DNA of 46,765 nucleotides from Tepidiphilus sp. J10 (GTDB lineage: Bacteria > Pseudomonadota > Gammaproteobacteria > Burkholderiales > Thiobacillaceae): contig CAMDGQ010000033.1 in assembly GCA_945897955.1 (NCBI GenBank), positions 1 through 46,765 of the forward strand, written 5' to 3'. Below, in pieces: positions 3,086-22,202 of the stretch (the stretch's first letter is position 1; each line of letters starts with the position of its first letter). The translations under genes and the position numbers were made by a program. A model generated the notes under the pieces. It ran no database searches. It was not told where the DNA came from and saw nothing but the letters and a program-made list of their open reading frames with translations.

Positions 3086-3375
3086 GGCTTTGGCGAGCAT
3101 GAGTAATCCCGCACCCGACACCAAAAGCGGATTGAATTCGGCAGGGTGCATGCAAGTAAGCACTAGGTAAAAAATACCAGCCCGGAAATGCCGAAATACC
3201 CGCCAAGGCCCGCCAATATTAGAGTTCGCTTGTTGACGCGGGTAAAAGCGACATGACAGCATCCAGCCCTGCTTTGATCCTGGTCAATTCTGTCAAGACC
3301 GCTTGTACGCTCCAGGGTTTTAGCTCCGTTCGAAGGACGGTTAACCGTCTTTTTTGTCCCAACCTGGAGGAAGAC
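3005..3375. other. Gene-free stretch between hemH and fccA
   Basis: 371 bases without a convincing gene. Contents: a possible IS-end remnant at the left, an AT-richer middle with no credible reading frame, and a hairpin followed by a T-tract at 3336-3355 just upstream of fccA. No convincing -35/-10 pair for fccA could be picked out by eye. The short minus-strand open frames here lack ribosome sites and protein-like composition. Confidence 0.6.
3336..3355 (+). promoter_or_regulatory. Hairpin plus T-tract in fccA leader (attenuator-like)
   Basis: GACGG-TTAA-CCGTC forms a perfect 14-base palindrome (5-bp stem, TTAA loop) immediately followed by six T. It ends about 20 bases before the fccA ATG. 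It could be a weak intrinsic terminator or attenuator controlling fccAB, the end of an upstream transcript, or an operator. The stem is short, so function is uncertain. Confidence 0.4.
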
Positions 3376-3675
3376 ATGAAGAAATCCCTCGCAATTACCC
3401 TGCTCCTGGCGGGTACTCTGGGCGCGGTATCCGCTCAAGCAATCGACACCAAGGCTCGTTTCATGGCCGCAAACTGCGCCTACTGCCACGGCCCTGAAGG
3501 CAAGAGCCGCGGCGCCATTCCCAGCCTGGCCGGTCTTGAGCAGAAATATTTCGTCGAGCAGATGAAAGCTTTCCGTGATGGCTCGCGCCCGGCTACTGTC
3601 ATGCAAAAACACGCCATGGGTTACACCGACGCCGAGTTCGAGCAGTTGGGTGCCTGGTTCTCTGCCATCAAGTAA
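3376..3675 (+). CDS. fccA: Monohaem cytochrome c subunit of flavocytochrome c sulfide dehydrogenase
   Basis: Takes electrons from the flavoprotein FccB during periplasmic sulfide oxidation. 99 residues: a Sec signal peptide ends near AQA-ID (about residue 22), then a single haem motif CAYCH near residues 34-38, and a C-terminal methionine region (KHAMGYTDAEFEQLGAWF) of the class I cytochrome type that can supply the distal haem ligand. GGAGG at 3366-3370 fixes the ATG at 3376. fccB follows 20 bases downstream. The classic Allochromatium subunit is larger and dihaem; this is the short monohaem form. Its role is inferred mainly from the partner gene. Confidence 0.88.
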   Translation: MKKSLAITLLLAGTLGAVSAQAIDTKARFMAANCAYCHGPEGKSRGAIPSLAGLEQKYFVEQMKAFRDGSRPATVMQKHAMGYTDAEFEQLGAWFSAIK

Positions 3676-3695
3676 ACAAATACTGGAGATACATC

Positions 3696-5024
3696 ATGGC
3701 ATTTGATCGCCGCGAATTTCTGAAGATTTCCGCCGGTGTTACCGGCGCAGCATCGCTGGGCGCCCTTTCAGGCTGCGCCTCCGGCCCCGCCACGGGTGGC
3801 GCTCCCTACAAAGTTGTTGTCGTGGGAGCCGGTTTTGGTGGCGCCACCTTCGCCCGCTACCTGAAGATGTGGGAACCGAAGATCGAAATCACCATCATCG
3901 AGCCGAACGCGAATTTCGTTTCCTGCCCGACCTCCAACGAAGTTTTGGCTGGTCTAAACAAGCTGGAAGACATTACCTTCACTTATGACCACCTGAAGAA
4001 GTCGGTTGATAACTGGGTGCAGGACACCGTCACCAGCATCGACACAGTTGGCCGCAATGTAAAAACCGCGGGCGGCAAGAGCATCGCCTATGACCGGCTG
4101 GTCCTTGCCGGCGGCATTGAGCTGATGTTCGACAAGGTCGAGGGGTATAACGCCGAAGCCCAGCAGACCATCATGCATGCCTGGAAAGCAGGTCCGCAGA
4201 CCGCCACATTGCGCAAGCAACTGGAAGCCATGCCCGACGGCGGCGTCTTCGTCATGTCGGTACCGATGGCGCCCTACCGCTGCCCGCCCGGCCCTTACGA
4301 GCGCGCTTGCCAGGTCGCCACTTACCTCAAGCAGGCCAAGCCCAAGTCCAAGATCATCATTCTTGACGGCAATCCGGACATCGCTTCCAAGAAGCCGCTG
4401 TTCCTGGCAGCCTGGACCAAGCATTACGGCTACGGCACCGACAACAGCATGATCGAATACCGTCCCAACAACATGCCGCGCTCGGTTGACCCGGTCAAGA
4501 TGATGGTCGGTACCGAATTTGACGATGTGAAGGGCGATGTGATCAACGTGGTGCCGCCGATGCGCGCTGCGACGATCTGCGAAATGGCAGGCGTCCGCAA
4601 CGACTCATCCAACACATGGTGTCCGATCGATTACCGCACCTTTGAATCCCTGACAGTGAAGAACGTCCATATCCTGGGTGATTCGACGCTGACCAACTTC
4701 CCGAAATCGGGCTCGGTAGCCAACAACACCGGCAAGATGTGTGCCGCCGCGATCGTGGAAATGTTCAATGGTCGCGAGCCCGACTCCGCACCGGTAGTGA
4801 CCAATACCTGTTACTCGGCCGTCTCCGAAACCACAGCGATTCACGTCGCCACGGTATTCCGCTATGCGGCCGCGAAGACGGGTCCGGATGGCAAGGTCAC
4901 ACCGGCCTCGATGGTTGCCCAGAAGGGGGGCGGCATTTCCAAGGAAGAAAGCGAACTCGAATTCGCTTATATGGAATCGTGGGCCAAGAACGTTTGGGCC
5001 GACACACTTGGTCTGCCCGGCTGA
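3696..5024 (+). CDS. fccB: Flavocytochrome c sulfide dehydrogenase, flavoprotein subunit
   Basis: Oxidises sulfide to sulfur or polysulfide in the periplasm and passes electrons to the cytochrome subunit. 442 residues. The N-terminus carries a twin-arginine signal (DRREFLKI, RR at 5-6), so it is exported folded. The FAD-binding fold starts at VVVGAGFGGATFARYL. Cys77 in SCPTSNEVLAG sits where the covalent FAD-cysteine lies in Allochromatium. Cys196 (YRCPPGPYE) and Cys372 (NTCYSAV) have the same spacing from it as the redox disulfide pair. All key cysteines are therefore present. Ends 15 bases before a strong terminator. Confidence 0.93.
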   Translation: MAFDRREFLKISAGVTGAASLGALSGCASGPATGGAPYKVVVVGAGFGGATFARYLKMWEPKIEITIIEPNANFVSCPTSNEVLAGLNKLEDITFTYDHLKKSVDNWVQDTVTSIDTVGRNVKTAGGKSIAYDRLVLAGGIELMFDKVEGYNAEAQQTIMHAWKAGPQTATLRKQLEAMPDGGVFVMSVPMAPYRCPPGPYERACQVATYLKQAKPKSKIIILDGNPDIASKKPLFLAAWTKHYGYGTDNSMIEYRPNNMPRSVDPVKMMVGTEFDDVKGDVINVVPPMRAATICEMAGVRNDSSNTWCPIDYRTFESLTVKNVHILGDSTLTNFPKSGSVANNTGKMCAAAIVEMFNGREPDSAPVVTNTCYSAVSETTAIHVATVFRYAAAKTGPDGKVTPASMVAQKGGGISKEESELEFAYMESWAKNVWADTLGLPG

Positions 5025-5039
5025 TATCGAGCCGACCAG

Positions 5040-5070
5040 AAAAAAGGAGGGGGTGACCCCTCCTTTTTTT
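5040..5070. terminator. Bidirectional intrinsic terminator
   Basis: A perfect 13-bp stem (AAAAAAGGAGGGG paired with CCCCTCCTTTTTT, loop GTGA) flanked by A and T runs. It lies between convergent fccB and the metallo-hydrolase gene and should work in both directions. Confidence 0.92.
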
Positions 5071-5092
5071 ACGCCCGTCGCTTTCGCAACAA

Positions 5093-5878
5093 TCAGATAT
5101 GCAGGATCTGTCCTTCCATCAGCGCATTTGCCAACTTGCCATTCGCCGCCAGTTCGCCACCCAGCTCGGTCATGATGGACGCCTCGGCGCCAGGTTTGAG
5201 GTGAGTGATCCACACCTCGGGACCGGCTTTCAGGCCGGCCAGATCGGCTGCCAACTCGGCCGTATGGTAGTGCCGTGAAGCATGCGCGAGTTCACGTTGT
5301 TCGTTGGCGAAGGAACACTCCACCACCAGATGCAGCAGATCAGGAATCAATCCGGCCAACGCCCAGAGGGCTGGATGGCTGTTGGTATCGCCGGAAAACA
5401 GCAGACTGCCTTCCGTCCCACGCAAATGGAAGCCGCATGCCGGCACGACGTGATGGGCGGGAATGGGCGTGATTTCCCTGATTGCACCCGTTGAATCGGG
5501 CAGATGGCGGGTCTGCCCAAGCGCGATCGGTGCATAGCGCATGAAAGGTTCTTCCTGCGAGGGAATACGCGAAAAGTCGGGCCAGATTCGCCAATTGAAC
5601 AGATGATCCTTGAGGATTTCGAGGACTTCAGGCATCGCATGCACAATCAATGGCCCTTCGCGCTCGCCGGCAACGCTGTCCAGCAGCAAGGGCAGGCTCA
5701 GGATGTGATCAAGATGGCTGTGGGTAATGAAAACATGGTCGATCCGTGCCAGAGCTGCACGCGTCAGCCGAGATACGCCACTGCCGGCATCCAGCAGGAT
5801 GTCATCGTCGATCAGGAATGATGTCGTATGGCGGCCATCACCGATGCCGCCGGAACAACCTAGAACTTGAACTTGCAT
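5093..5878 (-). CDS. Metallo-beta-lactamase-fold hydrolase, class II cyclic-nucleotide phosphodiesterase-like
   Basis: 261 residues. The zinc motif HSHLDH (residues 53-58) followed by ILSL resembles the signature of class II cyclic-nucleotide phosphodiesterases (yeast PDE1, Vibrio CpdP). Later elements also fit the fold: FSGDTNS, VVECSF, HYHTAELA and WITHLKPG. No signal peptide is obvious, so it is probably cytoplasmic. It is the last gene of a long minus-strand run and starts 15 bases after the stop of the CHASE2 cyclase gene. A cAMP or cGMP phosphodiesterase closing the loop with that cyclase is the attractive reading. An RNase Z-like or other MBL hydrolase cannot be excluded. Confidence 0.75.
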   Translation of the reverse strand: MQVQVLGCSGGIGDGRHTTSFLIDDDILLDAGSGVSRLTRAALARIDHVFITHSHLDHILSLPLLLDSVAGEREGPLIVHAMPEVLEILKDHLFNWRIWPDFSRIPSQEEPFMRYAPIALGQTRHLPDSTGAIREITPIPAHHVVPACGFHLRGTEGSLLFSGDTNSHPALWALAGLIPDLLHLVVECSFANEQRELAHASRHYHTAELAADLAGLKAGPEVWITHLKPGAEASIMTELGGELAANGKLANALMEGQILHI

Positions 5879-5893
5879 GCGTCGGGCGGTGGA

Positions 5894-8110
5894 TTACTTT
5901 GTTGTAAAAGTGAATACGCCATCCCAGTCTGCCGGCGGCGGGCTCTCACGGAAATGCGCGATGCGATCGAGATAAACCTCGTACAACTTGCTCGGATGGC
6001 GCTTGTTCGCTTTACGCAGGATGTCTTCGGCAACATCGAAGTCATACAACAGGAAAGCCGCGCAGGCCTGTTCGAAATCCTGTTTGCGCTTGATCGCGGC
6101 AATATCGACCTGATCCTTCATACCCAGCGGCTCATAGATCGTCACCGGATGTGCCTTGCCCTTGACGCGTACGACATCAACCTTCATGAACTCGATATCC
6201 GGGCAATGCGCAACCGCTTCTTCGCCGACCAGAATGCCCAGACCATATTGCTTGGTCAGTCCTTCCAGACGTGAAGCCAGATTCACCGCATCTGCCATCA
6301 CGGTGTAAGCCATGCGGAACTCGGAGCCCATGTTGCCGACATTCATCTTGCCCGAATTGACGCCAATGCCGATCTTGATTTCCGGCCAGCCCTTCTGCTT
6401 CATCAACGGGTTGAGCTCATCCAGATCACGTTGCATCTGCATCGCGGCCTGAATCGCGTCGCTGGCATGATTGGTGTCAATCAACGGCGCTCCCCAGAAG
6501 GCCATGATCGCATCGCCGATATATTTGTCGATGGTGCCCCGGCGTTGCTGCACGATGCGGGTCATCGACGAAAGGTAGAAGTTGAGCATCTCGGCCAGCG
6601 ATGAGGCCGACAAGCCCTCGGAAATGCTGGTGAAATCGCGAATATCCGAGAACAGCACGCTCATGTCTCGCGACTCGCCCTTCAGGTTGTAGCGGTCCGG
6701 GTCGCGGCTCATTTCCTCGACCAGTTCCTTCGGCACATACTGGCCGAACAATTTGGTGATCTGGCCCTTGGCGCGCGTCTCGACAAAGAAACCATACGAC
6801 ATGTTGACCACGAACATCCCCAGCACGGTGATCAGCGGCGCGCCGAGCGGAAAATCCATATTCAGCGCATTCCACGCCCAGACATCGAGCGCGATCACCA
6901 GAATCAGGAAAGCGAGTGTGGAGGTTGCAGCGATCAGGGGCGTGGTCATTGGTAACAGGATGCCAATCAGCAAACCGAGCACGACCACGCTGGCCACGGT
7001 CAGCATGGTGACCTGGCGAGGTTTCCATTTCAGGTTCTGATCGAGAATCCCGGAAAGCAGAGAAGCGTGAATCTCGACCCCCGGGAATACCTCGCTGACG
7101 GGGGTAACGCGGATATCGGCCAGTCCCGGCGCAGTGGTGCCGACCAGAACGATGCGTCCTTCAAGCTGGCTGACCGGAGCTTGTCCGCTGATCACGTCGG
7201 TCGCGGAGACGAACTGGTATGCGCCTTGACTGCGGTAGGGGACCAGCACGCCACCATCCGGGTCGAACGGCACTTTGAGGCCGTCTATATCGAGCGAGTG
7301 CGGCAGGTAACGATGCAGACCATCGCCGCCGGGATTGGCCAGTTTGATGTCCTTCGCCCCCATCGCCGCCTGAGTCAGCATGATGGGCAGCGAAGCGTAG
7401 TAGCCGTTCTGATAATTGATCATCACCGGCATGCGTCGGATCACGCCGTCGTTGTCCGGCAACGAGTTGTAAAAGCCGGCCGAAGCTGCCTTCTCCAGCA
7501 ATCTAGGCAAGGAACCGCCATAACCCTGGGCATGCATGAAGCCGCCGCCGAGTCCGCCGAGTTGATCCTGCGTAAACAACGGCTTCGGCAGCGTGGCGAT
7601 ACGCTCTGCGCCCTGATTCACGTTGAAGTAATAGCCCAGAACGGACATGCCCTTGGCGAGCGATTCGGCCATCAACCCATCGTAATCAAGGCTTGGCCGC
7701 AACTGTTCGATCAGACCAAGAAAATTCGGCTGATCCTTCAATTCGTTGGCGGCGAGTCTTTCCAGCACCGGCAAGCCTGAACTGGCGTCAGGTTCGGAAA
7801 ACACGATGTCGAAACCGACTGCGGCGGCGCCGTATTGCTCGAACAGATTGCTCTGCATGCGCGCCAATTTTTCGCGCGGCCAGGGCCAGCGGCCTTCGGC
7901 CTGGAGGCTCTTGTCATCGATATCCACAATCACGATGCGATCGTCGATGCCATGCGCCTTGGTCGTCTGGACCTTGAGGTCATACATCGTGTTGTCCAGG
8001 ATATCGACGAAACCCAGATGCAGCACGCCAGTCAGGTGCAAGGTCAACAAAATGACCAGCAGCGCACTGAGGGTGAATTGACCGATGAATCGACGACTAC
8101 GCAAGGTCAT
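5894..8110 (-). CDS. CHASE2-domain class III adenylate/guanylate cyclase
   Basis: Membrane receptor that probably makes cAMP. 738 residues from the ATG at 8110, chosen because GGAG lies about 10 bases upstream and the longer frame would run into the preceding gene. Order: a membrane helix (about 8-30), a periplasmic CHASE2 sensor (about 30-360), three helices (about 367-440), then the cyclase domain. Metal aspartates are in FSDIRDF (D489) and KYIGD (D533). K529 and D607 (MADAVNLASRLE) favour ATP, and N610/R614 are the transition-state pair. All catalytic residues are present. It follows the HD-GYP gene by 37 bases. Substrate (ATP rather than GTP) is inferred from motifs only. Confidence 0.92.
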   Translation of the reverse strand: MTLRSRRFIGQFTLSALLVILLTLHLTGVLHLGFVDILDNTMYDLKVQTTKAHGIDDRIVIVDIDDKSLQAEGRWPWPREKLARMQSNLFEQYGAAAVGFDIVFSEPDASSGLPVLERLAANELKDQPNFLGLIEQLRPSLDYDGLMAESLAKGMSVLGYYFNVNQGAERIATLPKPLFTQDQLGGLGGGFMHAQGYGGSLPRLLEKAASAGFYNSLPDNDGVIRRMPVMINYQNGYYASLPIMLTQAAMGAKDIKLANPGGDGLHRYLPHSLDIDGLKVPFDPDGGVLVPYRSQGAYQFVSATDVISGQAPVSQLEGRIVLVGTTAPGLADIRVTPVSEVFPGVEIHASLLSGILDQNLKWKPRQVTMLTVASVVVLGLLIGILLPMTTPLIAATSTLAFLILVIALDVWAWNALNMDFPLGAPLITVLGMFVVNMSYGFFVETRAKGQITKLFGQYVPKELVEEMSRDPDRYNLKGESRDMSVLFSDIRDFTSISEGLSASSLAEMLNFYLSSMTRIVQQRRGTIDKYIGDAIMAFWGAPLIDTNHASDAIQAAMQMQRDLDELNPLMKQKGWPEIKIGIGVNSGKMNVGNMGSEFRMAYTVMADAVNLASRLEGLTKQYGLGILVGEEAVAHCPDIEFMKVDVVRVKGKAHPVTIYEPLGMKDQVDIAAIKRKQDFEQACAAFLLYDFDVAEDILRKANKRHPSKLYEVYLDRIAHFRESPPPADWDGVFTFTTK

Positions 8111-8147
8111 GGCTGTTGCTGCTCCTGGTTTAAAACATTGATATCGG

Positions 8148-9863
8148 TTACAGGGCCGCTTCCGAGGATCCTGCTGAATATCCCGGGATGGCGGATTCAT
8201 CCACCGCGTCGATCTGCTCCGGCTTGAGATGCGCGCGGGCGTATGTCAGATACACCTTCTCGCGCACGAACACATCAAACAGATCGGGGTCGATGTGATT
8301 ATCCAGCTTCATGCGCCCAAGAATAGCCAGAGATCGCGACAGGGACATACCCGGCTTGTAGGGTCGGTCACTGGCTGTAAGCGCTTCGAAGATATCCGCG
8401 ATTCCCATGATGCGCGCCTGCACCGACATCTGTTCCCGTGTCAGCCCCTTTGGATAGCCCTTGCCATCCATGCGCTCGTGATGGCCTCCGGCAAACTCCG
8501 GCACATTGCGCAAATGACGCGGCCAGGGCAGCGCTTCCAGCATATGGATGGTGGAAACGATGTGGTAATTGATGATGTCGCGCTCCTCGTTCGACAGCGT
8601 GCCCTTGGCGATGCAAAGTTTGTCGGCCTCCTCGTCACTGAGCAACCCGACGTACTCCCCGGCTGAATTGCGCCACTGATATTCGCGCCCGATGGCGCGC
8701 ACCCGCGCCTGCATCTCGGGCGACATGAATTCGCCGCCGATATTGGCTTGGCGAAGGAAAGCGCGGGCCGCATCAAGTCCTTCGCAATAAGCGTCGTATT
8801 CGGCTTGCGGGGCCGGAGTCGCTTCCGGCGCCTTCAGACTGGCCTCCAGCATGCGGATACGCGCATCGCGCTTGAGCACTTCAAAGCGCAAATCGATCAG
8901 ATGGATACGGTCGAAGATCGACTCCAGCTTGGTTGCCTTGTCGACGATATGCACGGGCGTCGTGATCTTGCCGCAGTCGTGCATCAGCGCGGCGATCTCC
9001 AGTTCGCGCCGATCCTTTTCGCTGAGATGGAAATCCTTCAGCGGACCGTGGTCGGTCCGATCGGCCGCAGCCGCCAGCAACATGGTGATTTCCGGCACGC
9101 GCTGGCAATGACCATGGGTATAGGGTGATTTCTCGTCCAGCGCGTTGGATATGACCTTGATGAACGAAACGAACAATTCTTCCAGCCGATCAATCAATTG
9201 ACGGTTGGTCAATACCACCGCTGCCTGGGAAGCCAGGGACTCGACCAGATACTGATCATCGTGATCGAAGGCAATGATCTCGCCGCTGTCCGGATCTTCG
9301 GCATTGATCAACTGCAATACGCCGATGACTCGCTCCTCGTGATCCATCATCGGCACGGTCAGGAAGGAGCGCGACTGGTAACCATTGAGCGCATCGAAAC
9401 GGTGTGTGCCGGAAAAATCGTACTCGGATGCATCGTAGGCATCCGCAATGTTGATCGTTTTTCCGTACAGCGCCGCAGATGCGGAAATGGTTGAAAGATT
9501 CGGGCTGCCATCCGGCAGGTACATCGGGATGGGGTTGTGGGCCAGCGCATCGCCACCCTTGCCGCCCTGATGAATGCCGAGGGTGTTATTGCGGATGATG
9601 GCGAATTCGAGATGCTGCTCGCGAATCAGGTAGATCGTGCCGCCATCGGCATGAGTCAGCACCTGCGCTGCTTCCAGTATGCGGTTCAGAAGTTCGCCGA
9701 TATCGCGCTGACTGGACAACTCGATACCAATGGAAACCAGGCGTTCCAGACGATCCAGCGACAGACCCGATTGCGGCGGGATCGTTGGCGCTTCAGCGCT
9801 GACGAATCCGGCATCCTTTTTCTGCGAGGGAATCCGGCTGTCCTGACTTTCTGGTGATGTCAT
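8148..9863 (-). CDS. GAF and HD-GYP domain protein, probable c-di-GMP phosphodiesterase
   Basis: 571 residues, no signal or membrane segment. A GAF domain covers about residues 36-225, ending at ASQAAVVLTNRQLIDRLEEL. The HD-GYP domain follows: HGHCQRV (about 250), HDCGK (295-299) and HHERMDGKGYP (461-471), so the HD dyad and the GYP signature are complete. An insert of about 100 residues separates HDCGK from the HHE motif, with an unusual stretch (about 330-415) lacking clear homology. The likely reaction is hydrolysis of c-di-GMP to pGpG or GMP. The start codon overlaps the stop of the upstream SH3/pseudo-M48 gene by 4 nt (ATGA), and the cyclase follows by 37 bases. Confidence 0.9.
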   Translation of the reverse strand: MTSPESQDSRIPSQKKDAGFVSAEAPTIPPQSGLSLDRLERLVSIGIELSSQRDIGELLNRILEAAQVLTHADGGTIYLIREQHLEFAIIRNNTLGIHQGGKGGDALAHNPIPMYLPDGSPNLSTISASAALYGKTINIADAYDASEYDFSGTHRFDALNGYQSRSFLTVPMMDHEERVIGVLQLINAEDPDSGEIIAFDHDDQYLVESLASQAAVVLTNRQLIDRLEELFVSFIKVISNALDEKSPYTHGHCQRVPEITMLLAAAADRTDHGPLKDFHLSEKDRRELEIAALMHDCGKITTPVHIVDKATKLESIFDRIHLIDLRFEVLKRDARIRMLEASLKAPEATPAPQAEYDAYCEGLDAARAFLRQANIGGEFMSPEMQARVRAIGREYQWRNSAGEYVGLLSDEEADKLCIAKGTLSNEERDIINYHIVSTIHMLEALPWPRHLRNVPEFAGGHHERMDGKGYPKGLTREQMSVQARIMGIADIFEALTASDRPYKPGMSLSRSLAILGRMKLDNHIDPDLFDVFVREKVYLTYARAHLKPEQIDAVDESAIPGYSAGSSEAAL

Positions 9864-11209
9864 TGTTGATTACGCTCCTGTCTGCCCTGCCTGTCCGCAG
9901 GCAAAGCGAACTGCCTGAAACGGCCTGCCTGTGATTGTGCTGTGAAGCTGTCGAATCGGCTACTTCCAACACCGGCATCCATCGCCGCAGCCAGTTGCTG
10001 CAAGCGCGCCGAAGGCGACGGACGGGTACGCGAAAACAGCGCCAGATTGGGGTCATCACGCCCTATCGAGTCCAGTTTCTGCAAAACAGAAGCAAACGCG
10101 TAAGGCTCGTATCCGGCCCGAACAGCCAGCACCAGACCGGCGCGATCCGCCGCGAACACTCCCTGCGGATCAAGGTTGCGGCTCAGGTAATCGCCAGCAT
10201 CGCCAATCAAGTCGATCAGAAACAGCGTGCCGCTCGCCGCCGAGTCCGCCGCAGACTCGGCCACTTCCGGCGCCGCCAGGGTCTGTGCGATTTCCTTCAG
10301 ATAAACCATGGGCTGATGGCGCAATACCTGCGCCATCTCGCTGCCTAGCATGGCCGCCAGTTCGGCCTCGCTTTCCAGCCTCTGGTAGAGGCCACGCGTC
10401 AGGAACACAAATCCACCCGGTGCGGAAACGGTGAATATTTCGTCGCTGTCCAGCACGCCAAAACGCCATGGCTGCTCCGGTTTTTCGCTCTGCATGACCA
10501 GCCAGCCGCCTACCTGATTGACATAGCGCTGCACCGCCGCTTCCCGCACCAATGGTGCTTTCCGCTCGATCTGGCTGGCGATATGCGCGCCGATGCGCTG
10601 CTCGTCGGCTGGTGTTGCCTTGCCCAGCAGCAACGCGCCATGCAACGACAGCGCGGGCGATTCGGATGCAGCACCGCCCCCGCGTTTCAACCAGCGCACC
10701 AGGCCGGCATCCTCCTGGCCGGGAGGATCGAGATAAGCCAGTTGCTGAGGATTGAGTTCGCCTGCCTGTGCAAAAGCCGCAACCTCGGCGGGACCGGGAC
10801 GGTAAACATCCAGCGCGCGCGTGACGGCGACATCCCGCGCCGCGACACCCTGGGTTGAATCAATGCCACGCAGGCCGGCCACGGCGACGATGCCGCGCGC
10901 ATCGCCACCGCCTGGCAGAAAGACGCTCTTGATCCTGCCCCAAAATCCGACTGCGGGCGCCTCCTCATTGCTGCCGCGCAGCGAGAAAACGCGCAACCAA
11001 CCTTCTCGCCTGCCAGCCTGGACACGCACCCAGCCGCCAGTACGTTGCAGAATTTCGACTGATGCGCCGCGCGCCAACTGTGCGATCGGCGCCGCATCCG
11101 CCGAAGCGTTTTCACGCAAAACCTCATTTCGCAACAACACGCCGGATGCGGCATTCGCGGTCTGCGCGACCAGCATCACGAGCCCGAGCCAAAGATTCCT
11201 GCTGTTCAT
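9860..11209 (-). CDS. Exported SH3b-M48 fusion with a destroyed zinc site (pseudopeptidase)
   Basis: 449 residues. Signal peptide (about 1-20), a bacterial SH3 domain (about 22-78), a conserved module with IVAVAGLRG (about 107-115) also found in two neighbouring genes, and an M48-like domain (about 200-430). Against the intact paralogue encoded at 15002-15901, HEIGH is replaced by SEMAQ (290-294) and the third ligand region EAD is AAD (about 353). All three zinc ligands are gone, while the surrounding sequence (SAPGGFVFLTRGLY, AELAAMLG, ADRAGLVLAVRAGY) is well kept. It is therefore probably a non-catalytic binding or regulatory protein in the periplasm. It is translationally coupled (4-nt overlap) to the HD-GYP gene. 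Confidence 0.88.
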   Translation of the reverse strand: MNSRNLWLGLVMLVAQTANAASGVLLRNEVLRENASADAAPIAQLARGASVEILQRTGGWVRVQAGRREGWLRVFSLRGSNEEAPAVGFWGRIKSVFLPGGGDARGIVAVAGLRGIDSTQGVAARDVAVTRALDVYRPGPAEVAAFAQAGELNPQQLAYLDPPGQEDAGLVRWLKRGGGAASESPALSLHGALLLGKATPADEQRIGAHIASQIERKAPLVREAAVQRYVNQVGGWLVMQSEKPEQPWRFGVLDSDEIFTVSAPGGFVFLTRGLYQRLESEAELAAMLGSEMAQVLRHQPMVYLKEIAQTLAAPEVAESAADSAASGTLFLIDLIGDAGDYLSRNLDPQGVFAADRAGLVLAVRAGYEPYAFASVLQKLDSIGRDDPNLALFSRTRPSPSARLQQLAAAMDAGVGSSRFDSFTAQSQAGRFRQFALPADRQGRQERNQQ

Positions 11210-11256
11210 CGAGCTACCTCTTCACGTTGACGGCGTTGTTGACTGTTTTTGACCGG

Positions 11257-13614
11257 TCAATCCACCAGGCCGGTCAGGTAGAAACTCGCCCAGAAAAACG
11301 GTGCAGCGCCGCGGCCAAGCAATTCAAGTTGTGCACCGCGCAACGCATCGCGCTTGTTTTGTCCATCCAGGCCGGCATAGAACTTTTGCATCAGCTCGGC
11401 CGTCGCTGCGTCATCCACCGACCAGTAACTGGCCAGCAACGTGCGCGCACCGGAATAGAAAAACCCGCGCACAAGTCCGACCACGTCATCGCCGGCGCTG
11501 CCCTTGCCGAGGCCGGTTTCGCAGGCGCTGAGGGAAACCAGATCGGCGTTCAGCTTTAGTCCGTAGATTTCATCCACCGTAAGCAGTCCATCGTATTCAG
11601 CGTCGCCCGCCAGAAGCAGGAACGATTTCAAGGGCGCGGAGGACTGGAATTTTCCATGTGTCGCCAGATGCACATAGGCGTAAGAACCGCTCTCGCTGCG
11701 CAGAGCCCGTTCCGATGCCGCCACGCGCGTAAGCAGACGAGCATTGGGGAAATTTCGGCTGATGCCGCGCGCTTCCAGTTCGGCATGCGCGAGATCGTTG
11801 GCCACCACGCCGGTGTCCGGATTGGCCAGAATCAGGACATTGGGCGAAGCGGCGCGCGGCATGGCTTCCAGCAGCCGTTCAACACTGGCGCTGGGCAACA
11901 TGCGCACGCTGTGCCGTTGCAGCAACCAGTTCTGGCCATCATGCAGCGCGGCGAACGGCAGGTAGTGCAGCGGACTGTGCGGCACGATGGTCAGATGCTT
12001 GCGCAGGCGGGTCTGCGCCGGACGCAGCAAGCGGTCGTAAAGCGCCCGCGCGCGCGCCTCGGATTCCGGCTCCATGCGGTTGATAGAGGCGCGGAAGTCG
12101 GCGATCTGACGTGATAACGGCTGGCGTGCAGGCTGCGCATTGTCGAGCTTGAACGCTGCGGCTTCGTCGCTGTTGATCACCAGAAGGTAAAGGTCGGGAC
12201 CGGAGGCGAAGTATTCCAACAGGCTTTCGTCAGGCCGCAAGCGTGCACTGACTTCCGCCAAGCCGACGCCCTGGACGGCGACCAATGACGCGAACATCGG
12301 GTCGGCCAGAAGCAGGCCCTGGCGGCTGGCATCCAACTCGGTCAGCAAGGCCCGCGCGTCGCCGCTGCCGCTTTGATATTGCGTTTGCTCATCGAGCCTG
12401 AGATAGGCGTTGAACTGCTCGACCGCCGCGCCCGCCAACTTGGCGGGCGGCTTTTCACGCCACTTGTAGGCGAGCAGATCGACCAGCGCGCGCGCTTTCG
12501 CGCGCTCCACATACTGAAACATGCTGGCGGTGTCGCCGCGCCGATACAGCACATCGACCAATGCGCCGTAGACCGACTGACGATCAGCGGCAAAGCCGAT
12601 CTTGTTGACCTCGGTATCGATATTGAGTCGATGCCGTTCGATGACTGCAACCGCCTGGCGCAGATAGTCGGCCGCCGCCACCAGATTGCCATCGGCATCG
12701 GCCAGCCGTCCCAGGTCGTACAGCAATTGCCAGTAGATTTCGCCGTTTTGTTGAATACGCGGGTTGCCAAGCAGCTTCTTGAAACGTTCTGCCGCTTCCT
12801 GCCGCTGCCCTGTTTCGAGCAGGGATTTGCCGAACATGTACTGGCGGGGCACGTCCTGCCAGAGCCAGAGGTTATTGCCGGTAAGCAAGGCGCCGCTGAA
12901 CAGGCGATCGAGAAAGGCGTTGGCCTCGAACAGATAGTCCTTGTTCAGCGCGTCATAGGCCTGCCTGTAGGCGCCCAGCGCCATGAAGCTGCGCGCCAGG
13001 GCGAGCGATTTGGATGTCTTGAATTCGTTGCTGAACAAACCGCCGGCTTTGACTTTCTCCAGGCGGCGCACATAGCTCCAGGCCGCATCGCGCTCGCCCA
13101 TCTTGTTGAGCGCGACAACGAGAGCGGCAAGCGAGTCGATTTCCACCAGAACTTCGGCATCGCCCTCTTTCTCGTACCAGTCGAGCGCGCGCCCGGCTTC
13201 ACCGACGGCGAGCGCGTAATCGCCCAGTTCGTTGGCGGACTCGGCGCGCAGGATGGCGGCGTAAGGCGTCAGATCTTCCGCCCCGAACAAACGCCCCTCT
13301 CGATCGCCCTGCCGAATGCGCATCTCCAGGTGCGTCAGGCATTGCTTCAGGCGGCGGTATTGCTTGATCTTGTGATAGGCAAAGCACAACCCGTGAATAT
13401 CCGCAGCCGCAGCCTTGGGTTGATCAAGGAGAAACTCGAAACGCTCGACCAGTTCCTCGTAACGCCCCTCGCCCAGCAACTTGATCTGTTGCTCGCCATC
13501 AGGCTGCCTGGCCTGCGCCGGGGCAAGCAGAATCCCGAGCGCCACAATCAACACACCCAACACCCCGCTTCGGCCGCAGCAAGGCTTCCAGATCATGCAA
13601 GGGCGTCGTGGCAT
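11257..13614 (-). CDS. Exported TPR-CHAT domain protein (caspase-like peptidase)
   Basis: 785 residues. A hydrophobic signal segment lies at about 14-35 (LIVALGILLAPAQA), so the protein should be periplasmic or further exported. The middle (about 40-400) is helical and TPR-like. The C-terminal CHAT domain carries the caspase-type dyad: His653 in HLATHG and Cys698 in SLSACETGLG, followed by GDDVVGLVRGFFYSGA. Both catalytic residues are intact. The ATG at 13614 lies 3 bases after the stop of the outer-membrane-protein gene, suggesting translational reinitiation; an in-frame ATG at 13596 is an alternative. Substrate unknown. The neighbouring SH3/M48 proteins and barrel are the natural candidates for partners. 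Confidence 0.9.
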   Translation of the reverse strand: MPRRPCMIWKPCCGRSGVLGVLIVALGILLAPAQARQPDGEQQIKLLGEGRYEELVERFEFLLDQPKAAAADIHGLCFAYHKIKQYRRLKQCLTHLEMRIRQGDREGRLFGAEDLTPYAAILRAESANELGDYALAVGEAGRALDWYEKEGDAEVLVEIDSLAALVVALNKMGERDAAWSYVRRLEKVKAGGLFSNEFKTSKSLALARSFMALGAYRQAYDALNKDYLFEANAFLDRLFSGALLTGNNLWLWQDVPRQYMFGKSLLETGQRQEAAERFKKLLGNPRIQQNGEIYWQLLYDLGRLADADGNLVAAADYLRQAVAVIERHRLNIDTEVNKIGFAADRQSVYGALVDVLYRRGDTASMFQYVERAKARALVDLLAYKWREKPPAKLAGAAVEQFNAYLRLDEQTQYQSGSGDARALLTELDASRQGLLLADPMFASLVAVQGVGLAEVSARLRPDESLLEYFASGPDLYLLVINSDEAAAFKLDNAQPARQPLSRQIADFRASINRMEPESEARARALYDRLLRPAQTRLRKHLTIVPHSPLHYLPFAALHDGQNWLLQRHSVRMLPSASVERLLEAMPRAASPNVLILANPDTGVVANDLAHAELEARGISRNFPNARLLTRVAASERALRSESGSYAYVHLATHGKFQSSAPLKSFLLLAGDAEYDGLLTVDEIYGLKLNADLVSLSACETGLGKGSAGDDVVGLVRGFFYSGARTLLASYWSVDDAATAELMQKFYAGLDGQNKRDALRGAQLELLGRGAAPFFWASFYLTGLVD

Positions 13615-13617
13615 GGC

Positions 13618-14862
13618 TTAGAACCAGTATCCAAACTCCAGATTGAAACCGCGATCCTTGGGTGCATGGATCAACGAAGCACCGACCCGGAATACGCCGG
13701 TAGCGGCCAGATTGGCGGCGCGCGTGGTGCCCAGCGTGAACTTGAGTTCCTGGTAGTTATCGCTGTACAGATCGGTGCCGAAGAAGCGGGTATCGATCAG
13801 CGCCACCTCGAAATGCATCTTGCCGCCCAGCATTCGGGTCGGCCGCGAGTAAAGAACACCATTTCGCAGCACCGTGTTGGAAATATTCGGGTCATAGCTG
13901 TAGTTCCGGTACTTGAACGGCATCGTCGTCATGTAGCCGAGCATGTTGCCCATGCCCAGGTCATACCCCTGATTGCGCCAATAATACGTACTGGTGATGG
14001 CTGCGGCGGCAACCTGAGCGGCAGAACCCAAATCCGCGGAGCCGGTCACGGCATAGTTGAAACTGGGAGTCAGCGACCAGCTACGCGACATTGGCACGCG
14101 ATAGGAAACCCCCAAACCCAGGTTGTATACCTTGGCGCCTTCAACATCCGTCAACGAGATCGGCAGGCGGAAGGTCAACTGGCGTCGCGGGTCCAGGTCG
14201 TTTCGGATGGTGTAGGACAAAGGCACTGTCGTGGTCCTTACGCGGGTATTGCCGAGGCCCATGTTCATCTGGGTGTAACTCAGGCCGATGCCGACGTAAT
14301 TGCGGGATTCGGCAGTCGAGACGGACTGGCCGGATTGCGTCGCGACATCGGATGGATCGGCAATATTGGAAAACTCGGCATTGAAGGTCTGATTGAAATC
14401 GTTGGCGACCAGACTCGACATCATGCTGTTCGGATTGCCGGCAATAGGGTCCAAAGGCGAATTCGCGGCAAGGTAACTGGCAATCTGTTCAAGCAATCCG
14501 GCGCTCTTGAAATAGTCGTTCATCAGACTCGCGCTTTCATCGCGCGTCGCTCCGAGAAACAACTGTGAAATTCCGAGCGAAGGGATGCTCAGGCTCAGTT
14601 CCTGTGAGCCTGCGGGAAAAAACGTGTTGATGGTGAGGCCGCGAAAGCCGAGCACCATTTCGGCCTGGGACGAGGCCGTATAGGTAGGCACAAGCGCTTG
14701 AATGGCCCCGGTCTGGGCAGCCAGAATCAGGCTTTCCGCCGACGAATAGCCTGCACTGCCCTGTTCAGCGCCGACCGAAACGAAAAAGGTAAAGGGCTCG
14801 GCCGCTTCACCTGAAACCGGCGCAAGCAGCGCAACCAGAAGTGCGAATACAGGTCTTCTCAT
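13618..14862 (-). CDS. Putative outer-membrane beta-barrel protein
   Basis: 414 residues from the ATG at 14862, chosen for the AAGGGG ribosome site and because the signal peptide (MRRPVFALLVALLAPVSGEA) then starts at residue 1. The C-terminal half has repeated alternating strands (YVGIGLSYTQMNM, LTFRLPISL, YNLGLGVSYRVPM, WSLTPSFNYAV) and the chain ends in EFGYWF, a terminal aromatic as expected for Bam-assembled barrels. The N-terminal third (about 25-190) is not barrel-like and may be a periplasmic or passenger region. I do not recognise the family. It lies 3 bases upstream of the CHAT gene, suggesting joint production. Confidence 0.75.
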   Translation of the reverse strand: MRRPVFALLVALLAPVSGEAAEPFTFFVSVGAEQGSAGYSSAESLILAAQTGAIQALVPTYTASSQAEMVLGFRGLTINTFFPAGSQELSLSIPSLGISQLFLGATRDESASLMNDYFKSAGLLEQIASYLAANSPLDPIAGNPNSMMSSLVANDFNQTFNAEFSNIADPSDVATQSGQSVSTAESRNYVGIGLSYTQMNMGLGNTRVRTTTVPLSYTIRNDLDPRRQLTFRLPISLTDVEGAKVYNLGLGVSYRVPMSRSWSLTPSFNYAVTGSADLGSAAQVAAAAITSTYYWRNQGYDLGMGNMLGYMTTMPFKYRNYSYDPNISNTVLRNGVLYSRPTRMLGGKMHFEVALIDTRFFGTDLYSDNYQELKFTLGTTRAANLAATGVFRVGASLIHAPKDRGFNLEFGYWF

Positions 14863-15001
14863 GACTATCCCCTTGAGATTGAAACCGACAACTCTTGGCA
14901 AGCAGCCCTAATCGGACAACGCCATCGGTTTAATCATAGGTAATAGTCAGACAAGTAAAGCAGCAAAGAACGGGGCTTATCCCCTCGCCTTCCACACCTG
15001 C

Positions 15002-15901
15002 TCAGCGCAGCCGGTAGAAGCGTCCAGCACCGCTCTGGCCTTCCGGCAAGGCGTCCAGTTTCTCTCCTACCGCTTCCGACAATTGACCAAGCCGCTCTTC
15101 CGGATGCGGATGCGTCTTGAACAGCAGCGATACGCTCTTGTCGGTTTTGGCGACATGTCCGATTTCGGCCAGCACCGCAGGCAAGGCATAAGCATCGTAG
15201 CCGGCACGTGCGCTCAACACCACGCCAATTCGGTCAGCCTCATACTCGGCATCCTTGTCCAGACCGCGCGCCACCACCTCCGCGCCATTGCCGATCAGGT
15301 TCTGCAAGACCTCGTTCTCATTCTTCAACTTGCGGCCGAGGATGCCGCCCAAAGCGGCAATTCCCTGCGATTTCTGCAACAACTTGAGGTGATGTTTACG
15401 CAGCACATGGCCAATTTCATGCCCCAGAACCCCGGCCAACTCGGCTTCGTTGTTCAGTTTTCTGTAAAGCCCCTTGGTCAGAAAAATGTAGCCGCCCGGC
15501 GCCGCAAATGCATTCAGATCGTCGCTCTCGATCACCCCGAAATGCCAGGCCAGATCTGGTCGCTCGGTTTGCAGGGAAACCCAGCGCCCCACCCGGTTGA
15601 CGTAGCGTTGCAGGCCATCATCGCGCACCAGCGGCGCCGCACCGAGCAGATTGCCGGCGATCTGCTGGCCGATGCGCACTTCCTCTTCCAGCGAAACATT
15701 GCCGCCCATCAACGCCTTCAACAACTGATCGGCCGGTTTTTCCGCCGCTGCGGCCGGCTGCGCCGGGTTTACCGGCTGCTCCTGCGCGGGCGGTGCAAGT
15801 TTCTTCTTGAGCAATCCCTTGAACAGGCTTTCAAGTTCATTTGCCTGTACCTGACTGATGCTCAACATGCCGGCAACAAGCCAAAGATATCTGCTTTTCA
15901 T
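15002..15901 (-). CDS. M48-family periplasmic zinc metallopeptidase
   Basis: 299 residues from the ATG at 15901 (AAGGAAAT ribosome site; signal peptide to about residue 20, VQA-NE). The M48 domain has HEIGH at 161-165 and the third ligand in EADRIGV (221-223), so the zinc site is complete. Flanking motifs AFAAPGGYIFLTKGLY and the C-terminal HPHPEERLGQL are typical of BepA/LoiP-type envelope proteases that degrade misassembled outer-membrane proteins. A Pro/Ala-rich linker lies at about 36-55. It sits 40 bases downstream of an SH3 protein gene. The same SH3-plus-M48 pair recurs as one fused but inactive protein at 9860-11209. Confidence 0.92.
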   Translation of the reverse strand: MKSRYLWLVAGMLSISQVQANELESLFKGLLKKKLAPPAQEQPVNPAQPAAAAEKPADQLLKALMGGNVSLEEEVRIGQQIAGNLLGAAPLVRDDGLQRYVNRVGRWVSLQTERPDLAWHFGVIESDDLNAFAAPGGYIFLTKGLYRKLNNEAELAGVLGHEIGHVLRKHHLKLLQKSQGIAALGGILGRKLKNENEVLQNLIGNGAEVVARGLDKDAEYEADRIGVVLSARAGYDAYALPAVLAEIGHVAKTDKSVSLLFKTHPHPEERLGQLSEAVGEKLDALPEGQSGAGRFYRLR

Positions 15902-15941
15902 GGATCGATTTCCTTCCTGAGAATTTTGCTTGCCGGACGGC

Positions 15942-16496
15942 TCATTGGCCTGGCGTGGCGAGATATGGCATGTCTCTTGCCCGCAAACCGGCTGACTCGG
16001 CAAACTGCTCGGCCTCGGCGCGGCCCATGAGATAACCGTGCAACAAGGCGATTTCAGCTTCGCTATAACTGGCAGCCTTCAAATTTTCCTCATCCAGGCC
16101 GCGCGTGCCCGCCACCGCAACCACCCTGCCCTGCGGCTTCCTGCCCAACGCCCCGAGATCGGAGAGATCCACCGCATCGCGAGCCTCACTGCTCACTGAA
16201 AGTACGCGCACCCAACCCGTCTTGTTAATGACGGTGATCTGGCTCCAGCCACCCTGACTGACAAGCAGGCGCACGCGTGCGCCCTTTTCTATCCGGGACA
16301 ATTCCGCTGATTCCGCATTCGGCGTGGCGCGCAATACATCGGCTTTGAGCATGACCGCGTTGGCATTGGACTCGGCGACCGTCCTGGCGGTTTTTTGGGG
16401 CGGTGTGCCCATGGCCTGAGACATGGCGGAAAAACACAGGCATCCGGCGCTGATCACACCAATAAGCGTGAAATTAATCAGGGGCAGTTGCGTCAT
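15942..16496 (-). CDS. Exported SH3b-domain protein with conserved C-terminal module
   Basis: 184 residues. An N-terminal hydrophobic export segment is present, then a bacterial SH3 domain (about 45-102: VLRATPNAESAELSRIEKGA to TGWVRVLSV) and a module containing RVVAVAGTRGLDEENL and AEQFAESAGLRARDMPYL. The same module occurs in the upstream neighbour (16493-17044) and in the pseudo-M48 fusion. The start overlaps the upstream stop by 4 nt (ATGA), so translation is coupled. SH3b domains often bind cell-wall peptides; here the ligand is unknown. Confidence 0.85.
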   Translation of the reverse strand: MTQLPLINFTLIGVISAGCLCFSAMSQAMGTPPQKTARTVAESNANAVMLKADVLRATPNAESAELSRIEKGARVRLLVSQGGWSQITVINKTGWVRVLSVSSEARDAVDLSDLGALGRKPQGRVVAVAGTRGLDEENLKAASYSEAEIALLHGYLMGRAEAEQFAESAGLRARDMPYLATPGQ

Positions 16497-17044
16497 AAAT
16501 TTCCATCGCCAAAGCCAATGCCACTGGAGTTGCCGCTCGGACGGCTCTCCTGTTCACGCCTGGCTGCGTTGATGTAGGCGACATCTCGGCTGCGCAAACC
16601 CGCGCCACGCGCAAATTGCTCGGCATCGACTCGGCTGCTGGAGAATTGGTCGAGACGCGCCAATTCATTCGCGTTGAAGCGCGCACCACGCAATTCTTCC
16701 TCATTCAGGCCGCGCAAACCGGCTACTGCGACAACCCGGCTGGGATCACGTCTTTCGGCACCCATCTGGACAATCCCGCCAAGAACATTGCCGCCTGACT
16801 CGGCACTTGATCGGACCGACAGAATTCGAACCCAGCCAGTTGCGCCGGCATGGCGAATCTGCGTCCACCCCCCCTTCCGCGTCAAAACATCAACACTGGC
16901 GCCCTTGGCGACCCGACCGACAGCGGCCGAGTTCGCACTGGCATTTGTCCTCATTTCATCATCCTTGATCATGGTTCCCGTCGCCGCCCAGACCGGCGCG
17001 GCGAGCAGGCATGCAAACAACAATCCGGAAAAATACAATTTCAT
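16493..17044 (-). CDS. Exported SH3b-domain protein, first gene of the nine-gene run
   Basis: 183 residues. Signal peptide MKLYFSGLLFACLLAAPVWA, then an SH3b domain (about 22-80; MRTNASANSAAVGRVAKGA, GGWTQIRHAGATGWVRILSV) and the conserved module RVVAVAGLRGLNEEEL ... AEQFARGAGLRSRDVAYI. The C-terminus is a Gly/Ser-rich tail. AGGGTGA just before the ATG is a plausible ribosome site. It starts 96 bases from the divergent MlaE-type permease gene. A TATGAT on the minus strand at 17081-17086 is a candidate -10 for the whole run, without a good -35. Confidence 0.85.
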   Translation of the reverse strand: MKLYFSGLLFACLLAAPVWAATGTMIKDDEMRTNASANSAAVGRVAKGASVDVLTRKGGWTQIRHAGATGWVRILSVRSSAESGGNVLGGIVQMGAERRDPSRVVAVAGLRGLNEEELRGARFNANELARLDQFSSSRVDAEQFARGAGLRSRDVAYINAARREQESRPSGNSSGIGFGDGNL

Positions 17045-17140: not shown

Positions 17141-17935
17141 ATGAACTTCTTCACCAATTTCCTCAACCGACGCGGCGCAGCCTTGCTGGCTACCTGGCGA
17201 ATCTGGCGCGATACCCTTCAGTTTGCCGCTCGTGCCATCATCATCGCTTGCTCCCCATCCGCCTACAACAGCGCCACGCGCACGGTGGTAATGAAGCAGA
17301 TCTACTTCACGGCAGTGCAGATTCTGCCCGGATTCACTTTGTTCGCGGCATTGCTTTCTTTCGTGCTGATCCAGATCGTAGTCACAACTGCGGCGCAATT
17401 CGGGCTGTCGGATTACGCACTCGAAGTGTCCATGCGCTTGCTGGTGCTGGAACTGCTGCCGTTGATCACAGCGCTGTTCGTGGCATTGCGCTCAAGTTCC
17501 GCAATCAATACCGAAGTGGCCTTGATGAAGATAAACGGCGAAATCGAAGCGCTTGAAAGCGCCAGTGTCGACACCATGCGCCTCGAATTCATGCCGCGTG
17601 TCATCGGAGGCATGATCTCGGTCCTCGCACTCACTGCCGTCACCAGTGTGCTGGCGCTGATCCTGGCCTATCTCGCGGTATATGGCCTGCAAACCTGGAG
17701 CCTGCCGGATTTCAATCGCGTCATGGGCAAGGTGTTCGATAACGCCGTGCTGGTTGGCATCATCCTGAAGAGTACGGTCTTCGGCCTTGCGGTCACTGTT
17801 ATCCCGGTCGCCGAAGGTCTGGCGACTCCCAGAAAACTGTTCATGGCCCCTATTTCCGTTCTGCGCGGCATGGTTCGTCTGTTCTTCGCACTGATGCTGA
17901 TTGAAGTCGCATCCCTGGCTTTCAAATACATTTGA
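17141..17935 (+). CDS. MlaE-family ABC transporter permease (orphan)
   Basis: 264 residues, the usual MlaE/YrbE length. An N-terminal amphipathic segment (MNFFTNFLNRRGAALLATWR) and about five membrane helices are seen, with the family loop TEVALMKINGEIEALES and the conserved end VLRGMVRLFFALMLIEVASL. Such permeases move phospholipids between inner and outer membrane with an MlaF ATPase and MlaD substrate protein. Neither lies in this window, so it is either an orphan or its partners are elsewhere. I chose the ATG at 17141 because the open frame upstream runs into the divergent SH3 gene. The surrounding outer-membrane and protease genes fit an envelope role. Confidence 0.85.
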   Translation: MNFFTNFLNRRGAALLATWRIWRDTLQFAARAIIIACSPSAYNSATRTVVMKQIYFTAVQILPGFTLFAALLSFVLIQIVVTTAAQFGLSDYALEVSMRLLVLELLPLITALFVALRSSSAINTEVALMKINGEIEALESASVDTMRLEFMPRVIGGMISVLALTAVTSVLALILAYLAVYGLQTWSLPDFNRVMGKVFDNAVLVGIILKSTVFGLAVTVIPVAEGLATPRKLFMAPISVLRGMVRLFFALMLIEVASLAFKYI

Positions 17936-22171: not shown

Positions 22172-22202
22172 TAGAACCATGCAACTAGACATGGAGGCTG
22201 TT

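Follow-up and report, generated by a model that had tools for sequence, protein, structure and literature searches.

The window analysed here (positions 1 to 46,765 of contig CAMDGQ010000033.1, contig 33 of the assembly) comes from a 3.9-Mb draft genome of Tepidiphilus sp. J10 (GCA_945897955.1; 92% complete, 4.9% contamination), and carries on its minus strand, at 5093..17044, nine genes that include a CHASE2 class III cyclase. This locus is a mosaic of four blocks: the cyclase with a metallo-beta-lactamase (MBL) fold hydrolase, an SH3-M48 block, an HD-GYP gene, and a barrel-CHAT-psM48 cassette. The SH3-M48 block is linked to CHASE2 genes in two ways: in the Thiobacillaceae it precedes the cyclase, and elsewhere it follows another CHASE2 gene. 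Gene linkage, motifs and block structure were observed directly; we consider it about an even chance that they reflect an envelope-to-cyclic AMP (cAMP) relay, that is, a CHASE2-cyclase unit of interchangeable blocks in which envelope proteins set cAMP. The features are listed below in gene order, with lengths in amino acids (aa).

16493..17044, minus strand: SH3a, exported SH3 protein of 183 aa, SH3_3 and then another conserved region bearing the motif AVAGxRGL
15942..16496, minus strand: SH3b, exported SH3-AVAG protein of 184 aa with the same two regions (Pfam SH3_3), paralogue of SH3a
15002..15901, minus strand: M48, probably exported zinc metalloprotease of 299 aa, HEIGH intact, ATG at 15901
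13618..14862, minus strand: barrel, predicted outer-membrane beta-barrel of 414 aa, first gene of the cassette, C-terminus like that of outer-membrane proteins by eye
11257..13614, minus strand: CHAT, exported TPR-CHAT caspase-like protein of 785 aa, by Pfam and a hydrophobic N-terminus; H653 and C698
9860..11209, minus strand: psM48, exported fusion of SH3-AVAG and M48 domains, zinc motif lost (SEMAQ), by Pfam and motif check
8148..9863, minus strand: GAF-HD-GYP protein of 571 aa, probable cyclic di-GMP (c-di-GMP) phosphodiesterase, GAF and HD_5, motif HHERMDGKGYP, no hydrophobic segment
5894..8110, minus strand: CHASE2 class III adenylate cyclase (predicted) of 738 aa, CHASE2 and Guanylate_cyc
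5093..5878, minus strand: MBL, MBL-fold class-II cAMP phosphodiesterase-like hydrolase of 261 aa, motif HSHLDH, PDEase_II
5028..5072, minus strand: terminator-like hairpin and U-run just 3' of MBL, -19.9 kcal/mol, z -3.7

An earlier note, made from the sequence alone, had described nine genes on one strand in this order with gaps of 3 to 139 nucleotides (nt) and two 4-nt overlaps, and both the reading frames and the Pfam matches agree with it (SH3_3 three times, Peptidase_M48 twice, CHAT, GAF with HD_5, CHASE2 with Guanylate_cyc, and PDEase_II/Lactamase_B_2). The overlaps are those of SH3a with SH3b and of psM48 with HD-GYP, and the gaps, measured from the starts used, are 40 nt (SH3b-M48), 139 nt (M48-barrel), 3 nt (barrel-CHAT), 47 nt (CHAT-psM48), 37 nt (HD-GYP-cyclase) and 15 nt (cyclase-MBL); the nine-gene stretch has no N. 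A scan for signals gave a single promoter-like site against 4.1 expected by chance and 11 terminator-like sites against 11.8, counts near or below expectation that make it uninformative on breaks inside the unit. The note had also counted five or six exported products. Four of them, SH3a, SH3b, CHAT and psM48, have a hydrophobic N-terminal segment above the threshold of our script; M48 and the barrel fall below it, so that their predicted export rests on the appearance of the N-terminus.

The SH3-M48 link was also followed outside the Thiobacillaceae. An SH3 profile gave a match of any strength in 108 of 300 genomes of the order Burkholderiales, and 77 places above 100 bits outside the family. 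Forty of these were examined, picked before their neighbours had been seen: the 38 best, after skipping places at core cyclases (G395 and G149, which were among the mapped loci, and G193, judged from its coordinates) and a second place in G317, together with two from lower down (G138 and G169). Twenty control regions, each of 8.5 kb and set at round coordinates, were taken from 20 of the genomes that hold these places. SH3 was followed by M48 in 40/40 places, and a CHASE2-coding gene stood directly upstream on the same strand in 32 of them (16/20 in each of two batches), a count that is not a probability, the 40 places being related sequences. No CHASE2 and no SH3-M48 match was found in the 20 controls. 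The 32 places span 15 families, the distance from the CHASE2 stop to the SH3 match ranges from -6 to 245 nt, and HExxH was intact in the M48 protein of 20/20 places of the first batch. Because of this adjacency (32/40 against 0/20 in controls), SH3-M48 seems to accompany CHASE2 sensors as a general partner.

The CHASE2 gene that precedes SH3-M48 in these places differs from the window cyclase, since it is at most 32% identical to it and none of the 40 regions has an MBL gene. Ten of these genes were scanned with Pfam; all ten have CHASE2, three a cyclase domain, and seven a C-terminal part without any Pfam match. Proteins of this last kind (L268, L270, L271, L273, L274, L280 and L285; 562–613 aa) have in common a C-terminal region of some 200 aa that is conserved; it would be either a lost cyclase or an output domain that has no name.

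Each kind of protein here has been described before (CHASE2 cyclases, class-II phosphodiesterases, CHAT, M48, HD-GYP), and the CHASE2-SH3-M48 link is the part most worth testing. In the open-licence literature of PubMed Central (PMC) we did not find CHASE2 together with M48, nor CHASE2 with Thiobacillus, nor CHASE2 with adenylate cyclase and the CHAT domain, all of which is weak evidence of absence; a co-mention of CHASE2 and CHAT in a survey of cyanobacterial metacaspases was discarded, CHAT being there the name of an author, and the one other co-mention is in a book of conference abstracts. The target recognised by CHASE2 was stated to be unknown in one paper of 2016 (PMC5192318). The presence of SH3-M48 beside CHASE2 in 15 sampled Burkholderiales families and in the Thiobacillaceae makes it a concrete candidate for a CHASE2 input, and offers a small testable set of sensor, SH3 protein and protease.

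The block structure was read from maps of the genes that flank the cyclase, drawn for 40 loci of the family (Thiobacillaceae), 40 loci of other Burkholderiales families (the order loci) and 80 named loci, the best 80 of 582. Cyclase matches occur in 111 of 117 family genomes and 227 of 300 order genomes, and the mapped loci were chosen for a near full-length match; 66 of the 80 named loci have 2.5 kb upstream and 75 have 1 kb downstream. Reading frames in relatives were fixed by tblastn matches, and the tally includes neighbours that share a few bases with the cyclase. MBL lies directly after the cyclase in 38/40 family loci (the others are L023 and L058), 28/40 order loci and 37/80 named loci; the CHASE2 cyclase and the class-II phosphodiesterase-like hydrolase form a widespread core pair. 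SH3 and M48 stand upstream of the cyclase in 33/40, 2/40 and 10/80 loci, respectively, and M48 counted alone in 34/40 family loci. Of the other seven family loci, L026 and L030 are cut by contig ends, three belong to genus g7 (see below), L024 has an SH3-caspase instead of M48, and L058 is an additional cyclase in its genome.

To this core HD-GYP and the barrel-CHAT-psM48 cassette are added independently of each other, each with a scattered distribution. HD-GYP is directly upstream of the cyclase in 9/40 family, 1/40 order and 7/80 named loci, and the c-di-GMP arm falls outside the core; a further HD-GYP match above 300 bits lies downstream of the cyclase in 26/80 named loci. The motif HHERMDGKGYP presumably stands for c-di-GMP phosphodiesterase activity. 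CHAT was found at 1/40 family loci (L044 of G022), 0/40 order and 0/80 named loci. The full set of SH3, M48, cassette, HD-GYP, cyclase and MBL was found only in the window among the loci and genomes examined, with G012 cut by a contig end. The idea of a nine-gene system thus fails on the point that the note itself had named, lack of conservation of the gene set in relatives; its envelope relay is partly supported by the linkage of exported SH3 and protease genes to CHASE2 genes and is a fair model. Altogether the locus illustrates a cAMP core that swaps envelope input blocks (kinase/FHA, SH3/M48, barrel/CHAT) with the output pair kept.

The window cyclase scores 203 bits to CHASE2 and 72 bits to Guanylate_cyc, has one hydrophobic segment N-terminal to CHASE2 and three after it, and is the only CHASE2 match in the source genome. 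Residues D489, K529, D533, D607, N610 and R614 are invariant in 12/12 aligned relatives, and we take them to be those usually assigned to metal, adenine and transition-state contacts; the enzyme is a predicted adenylate cyclase and would make cAMP. The same cyclase is found in named records of Thiobacillus thioparus and other Thiobacillaceae. The MBL protein scores 42 bits to PDEase_II (cut-off 23.7), and far under the cut-offs of both the NCBIfam cyclic-nucleotide phosphodiesterase family (34 of 400 bits) and NCBIfam RNase Z. Its motif, THSHLDH, agrees with the class-II motif of the typical enzymes, HxHLDH, as well as with that of the atypical ones, [T/S]HxHxDH (as quoted in PMC9293780); HxHLDH is found in 101/106 MBL genes adjoining a cyclase, and HxHMDH in the other five. 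The motif and the adjacency to the cyclase suggest that MBL acts as a cAMP off-switch. The source genome has 13 matches to cyclic-nucleotide-binding (cNMP-binding) domains, so that cAMP receptors are conceivable.

A second SH3 gene of the SH3b type is present in some relatives only. The SH3 and AVAG regions also open psM48 and, in G018, an SH3-caspase protein at the position expected for M48. In that genome a second type of caspase-fold protein occupies the protease slot, and upstream of HD-GYP and cyclase (L024, 1–9100) there are a two-partner-secretion protein with DUF5650 repeats, a DUF5650-caspase and an SH3-caspase-DUF4384 protein. The HExxH motif is kept in every M48 protein of the relatives for which the motif was extracted (all but that of L059). 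The earlier note had called psM48 a dead protease, and it was right in this: against HEIGH in the live M48 it has SEMAQ, and the other three cassette genomes have REIAH, REIAR and REIAR. The first zinc histidine is therefore S, R, R and R, lost in 4/4, and the second is lost in 3/4, with the M48 region kept throughout.

The cassette itself sits at the window's place in the source genome (G000), G022, G024 and G012. In the first three, barrel, CHAT and psM48 stand between M48 and the next core gene, with about 1.1 kb without recognised gene after psM48 in G024; G012 has the same order up to the contig end after psM48, and no full cyclase orthologue (best match 1.7e-54). G021, which clusters with G022 and G024 by both cyclase and M48, has M48 followed directly by the cyclase, which gives the cassette-free state of the site. 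The CHAT protein matches PF12770 with 236 bits in a TPR-CHAT architecture with a signal-like N-terminus, and H653 and C698, presumably the His/Cys catalytic dyad, are invariant in 7/7. The barrel has no Pfam family above cut-off (DUF6268 at E 0.027); by eye it has a signal-like N-terminus and an outer-membrane-protein-like C-terminus ending in FGYWF. Homology to a solved structure was rejected, the single PDB sequence match (E 0.55) being due to chance. Barrel and CHAT (above 300 bits) are each found in the same seven of 117 family genomes, with weaker CHAT-domain matches in 11 more.

In six of the seven CHAT genomes, a CHASE2 cyclase lies near CHAT and shares its contig and strand, and in the seventh the contig ends short of that place. 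In G031, G032 and G037 this cyclase is a second, distant one, followed in G031 and G037 by the barrel and, before it, an exported protein of roughly 220 aa; in G032 both are on another contig. A 1246-aa open frame in G037 (L090) that suggested a fusion of CHAT and CHASE2 cyclase was rejected, as it crosses 100 N and shows neighbours only. The exported-looking proteins (L089:7110-7790, L090:977-1627 and L092:7534-8157; 207–226 aa, no Pfam match) lie between cyclase and barrel in G031 and G037 and before the barrel in G032, those of L090 and L092 being 53% and 48% identical to that of L089. A class-wide search found the barrel in 7/369 genomes including that of the window, three strong (G522, G547, G708) and three weak; CHAT adjoins it in G522, the contig of G708 ends about 400 nt past the best barrel match, and no CHAT match was found near the barrel in G547 or around the three weak places.

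In the relay that we favour, co-transcription, the ligand and what the enzymes make are inferred, and so are every physical interaction and the way in which regulation runs. Its core would be a membrane adenylate cyclase with a periplasmic CHASE2 domain, paired with a class-II-type phosphodiesterase that removes cAMP, and its usual input in the Thiobacillaceae an exported SH3 protein with an M48 protease. The SH3 protein might report on the wall or bind the CHASE2 ectodomain, the protease might cut or free that partner, and the dead psM48 might restrain M48 as a decoy for substrate or SH3 ligand, with barrel and CHAT contributing a surface-protein trigger. Once the restraint by CHASE2 was lifted cAMP would rise, MBL would reset it, and HD-GYP would couple the output to c-di-GMP. 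CyaD1 of Sinorhizobium meliloti without its CHASE2 domain makes cAMP constitutively (PMC5498481), which suggests that CHASE2 restrains the cyclase, and a periplasmic protease with an SH3 partner would be a natural way to lift or set this restraint. Only tentatively do we extend this to SH3-M48 as a general periplasmic input module for CHASE2, gating the restraint by proteolysis and here tuned by a dead decoy and linked to the surface by barrel and CHAT; if true, CHASE2 would be a proteolysis-gated receptor and not a small-ligand receptor.

Known systems show the principle in other forms. In Sinorhizobium meliloti a 1190-aa FecR-domain gene ends where cyaK begins, and we take it to be nsrA, whose length fits. 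In this species a protein signal reaches the CHASE2 cyclases via NsrA, a barrel of the outer membrane, and Clr carries their effect (PMC13001267, PMC7529298); the window is alike in having a CHASE2 class III cyclase with a predicted outer-membrane barrel, and in the proposed model also in an extracellular protein as signal. The exact composition, for which the earlier note knew of no named system, was not found in the open-licence PMC literature, but NsrA-CyaK-Clr is an earlier published case of its principle. Unlike NsrA-CyaK, none of the nine window proteins has FecR (E 0.1) and the barrel is not detectably related, and unlike the window, the 8 kb on either side of cyaK have no annotated gene for a protease, CHAT, SH3 or MBL protein. 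At up to 6.5 kb from the cyclase, the 40 order and 80 named loci have, in raw counts, a GAF-PilB-type ATPase (21 and 34), two-partner secretion TPS (3 and 11) and ShlB (3 and 9), a FecR-type protein (5 and 16) and a TPR-barrel, SlipAM-like (5 and 2); none of these was found at that distance in the 40 family loci. Unrelated barrel or FecR forms thus recur near CHASE2 cyclases, in line with NsrA.

The BiofilmReg operon of Burkholderia contaminans (PMC5192318) likewise joins an exported wall-binding protein and a CHASE2 sensor in one operon and gains extra genes by lineage; it has LysM-FecR, a histidine kinase and a response regulator where the window has SH3-M48 and the cyclase, and Pfam found no response regulator among the nine window proteins. 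The MBL protein resembles the typical and atypical class-II cAMP phosphodiesterases (Rv1339, CpdA of C. glutamicum, PDE1) in its fold and (T)HxHLDH motif (PMC9293780). It differs in scoring far under the NCBIfam cut-off, with the 34 bits given above, and is a candidate cAMP phosphodiesterase. Other Burkholderiales have a CHASE2-kinase/PP2C/FHA-cyclase-MBL cluster with the same cyclase and MBL genes, in which a kinase input replaces SH3-M48. To our knowledge this cluster has no name.

Several observations weigh against the relay. Whereas a cNMP-binding protein encoded up to 6.5 kb from the cyclase in 6/40 order and 18/80 named loci speaks for the relay, the 40 family loci showed none at that distance. 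In the other Burkholderiales loci sampled, cyclase and MBL mostly have no SH3-M48 beside them, and CHASE2-kinase, PP2C and FHA genes stand upstream of the cyclase in 23/40 order and 23/80 named loci but in none of the 40 family loci. In three loci of genus g7 (L035, L043, L060) HD-GYP takes the SH3/M48 position, with no SH3/M48 beside the cyclase. Eight of the 40 SH3-M48 places lack an upstream CHASE2 gene: four have MlaE instead, one is less than 1 kb from a contig edge and three have neither. The cassette is rare (4/117 family genomes at the window's place), and homology of the barrel to NsrA was rejected (hhalign probability 0.1). Trees of cyclase, MBL and M48 (without family loci L028, L029, L032, L049-L052, L054, L057 and L058; label changes counted against HD-GYP rows only) force two changes for the cassette with cyclase and MBL and one or more with M48, and the blocks may have different histories. 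The window-subclade cyclase (seven rows, all with HD-GYP, five also with SH3-M48) has a long stem of 0.65 outside the other non-Thiobacillus rows, unlike the MBL and M48 trees, where the subclade falls among its genus; this may be replacement, fast change or long-branch error.

The best surviving alternative, which we hold to be a real though lesser possibility, is envelope quality control first, with SH3-M48 as a BepA/LoiP-like unit for outer-membrane or lipid-transport upkeep and CHASE2 sensing the same stress, uncut by the protease. M48 indeed scores best against the BepA (110 of 570 bits) and LoiP (47 of 365 bits) models, though far under their cut-offs. In 35/40 family loci a divergent MlaE gene precedes the unit, a further point against the relay in that it allows such a role; the four MlaE places mentioned, without CHASE2, have it beside SH3 and all belong to family f35, and a fifth f35 genome, G395, has MlaE-SH3-M48-cyclase. 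Outside the family, however, CHASE2 adjoins SH3-M48 in 32/40 places and MlaE in only 4/40. It is unlikely that there is no single system at all, only independently useful genes in a shared transcription unit with cassette and HD-GYP as passengers. That the nine-gene set is in the source genome only, with blocks gained and lost separately, would fit this; yet the family has barrel and CHAT next to CHASE2 cyclases in two different gene settings, HD-GYP directly before the cyclase is met again in Methylobacter, Magnetococcales, Duganella and other records (by their titles), and psM48 retains its M48 region despite the loss of the first zinc histidine in 4/4. A defence or cell-death unit, with the cyclase making an alarm nucleotide and CHAT as executioner (Pycsar- or caspase-like), is very improbable, for although the cyclase domain matches PADLOC PycC models (best 1.6e-28) and CHAT distantly matches Csx29 (38 of 300 bits), Pycsar is defined by a PycC cyclase with a PycTIR or PycTM effector and the other eight proteins match no PADLOC model at E 0.01, the signal-like N-terminus would place CHAT in the periplasm, and the cyclase-MBL pair is common across Burkholderiales.

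Around the unit, cytochrome c and flavocytochrome-like genes (FccAB-type by our reading; 3355–5024, plus strand) converge on its terminator, and the flavoprotein gene is convergent downstream in 14/40 family loci too. On the other side MlaE (17141–17935, plus strand) adjoins the unit. An MlaD-like protein and a lipoprotein follow MlaE in relatives such as G027, and in the source genome they are found on another contig (G000:C76:13153-14145, L253); either the lipid-transport operon is split in this genome or the assembly is rearranged. Further along, the next large frame after phosphoglucose isomerase (22179–23003, plus strand) codes for a protein with a PEP-CTERM sorting motif.

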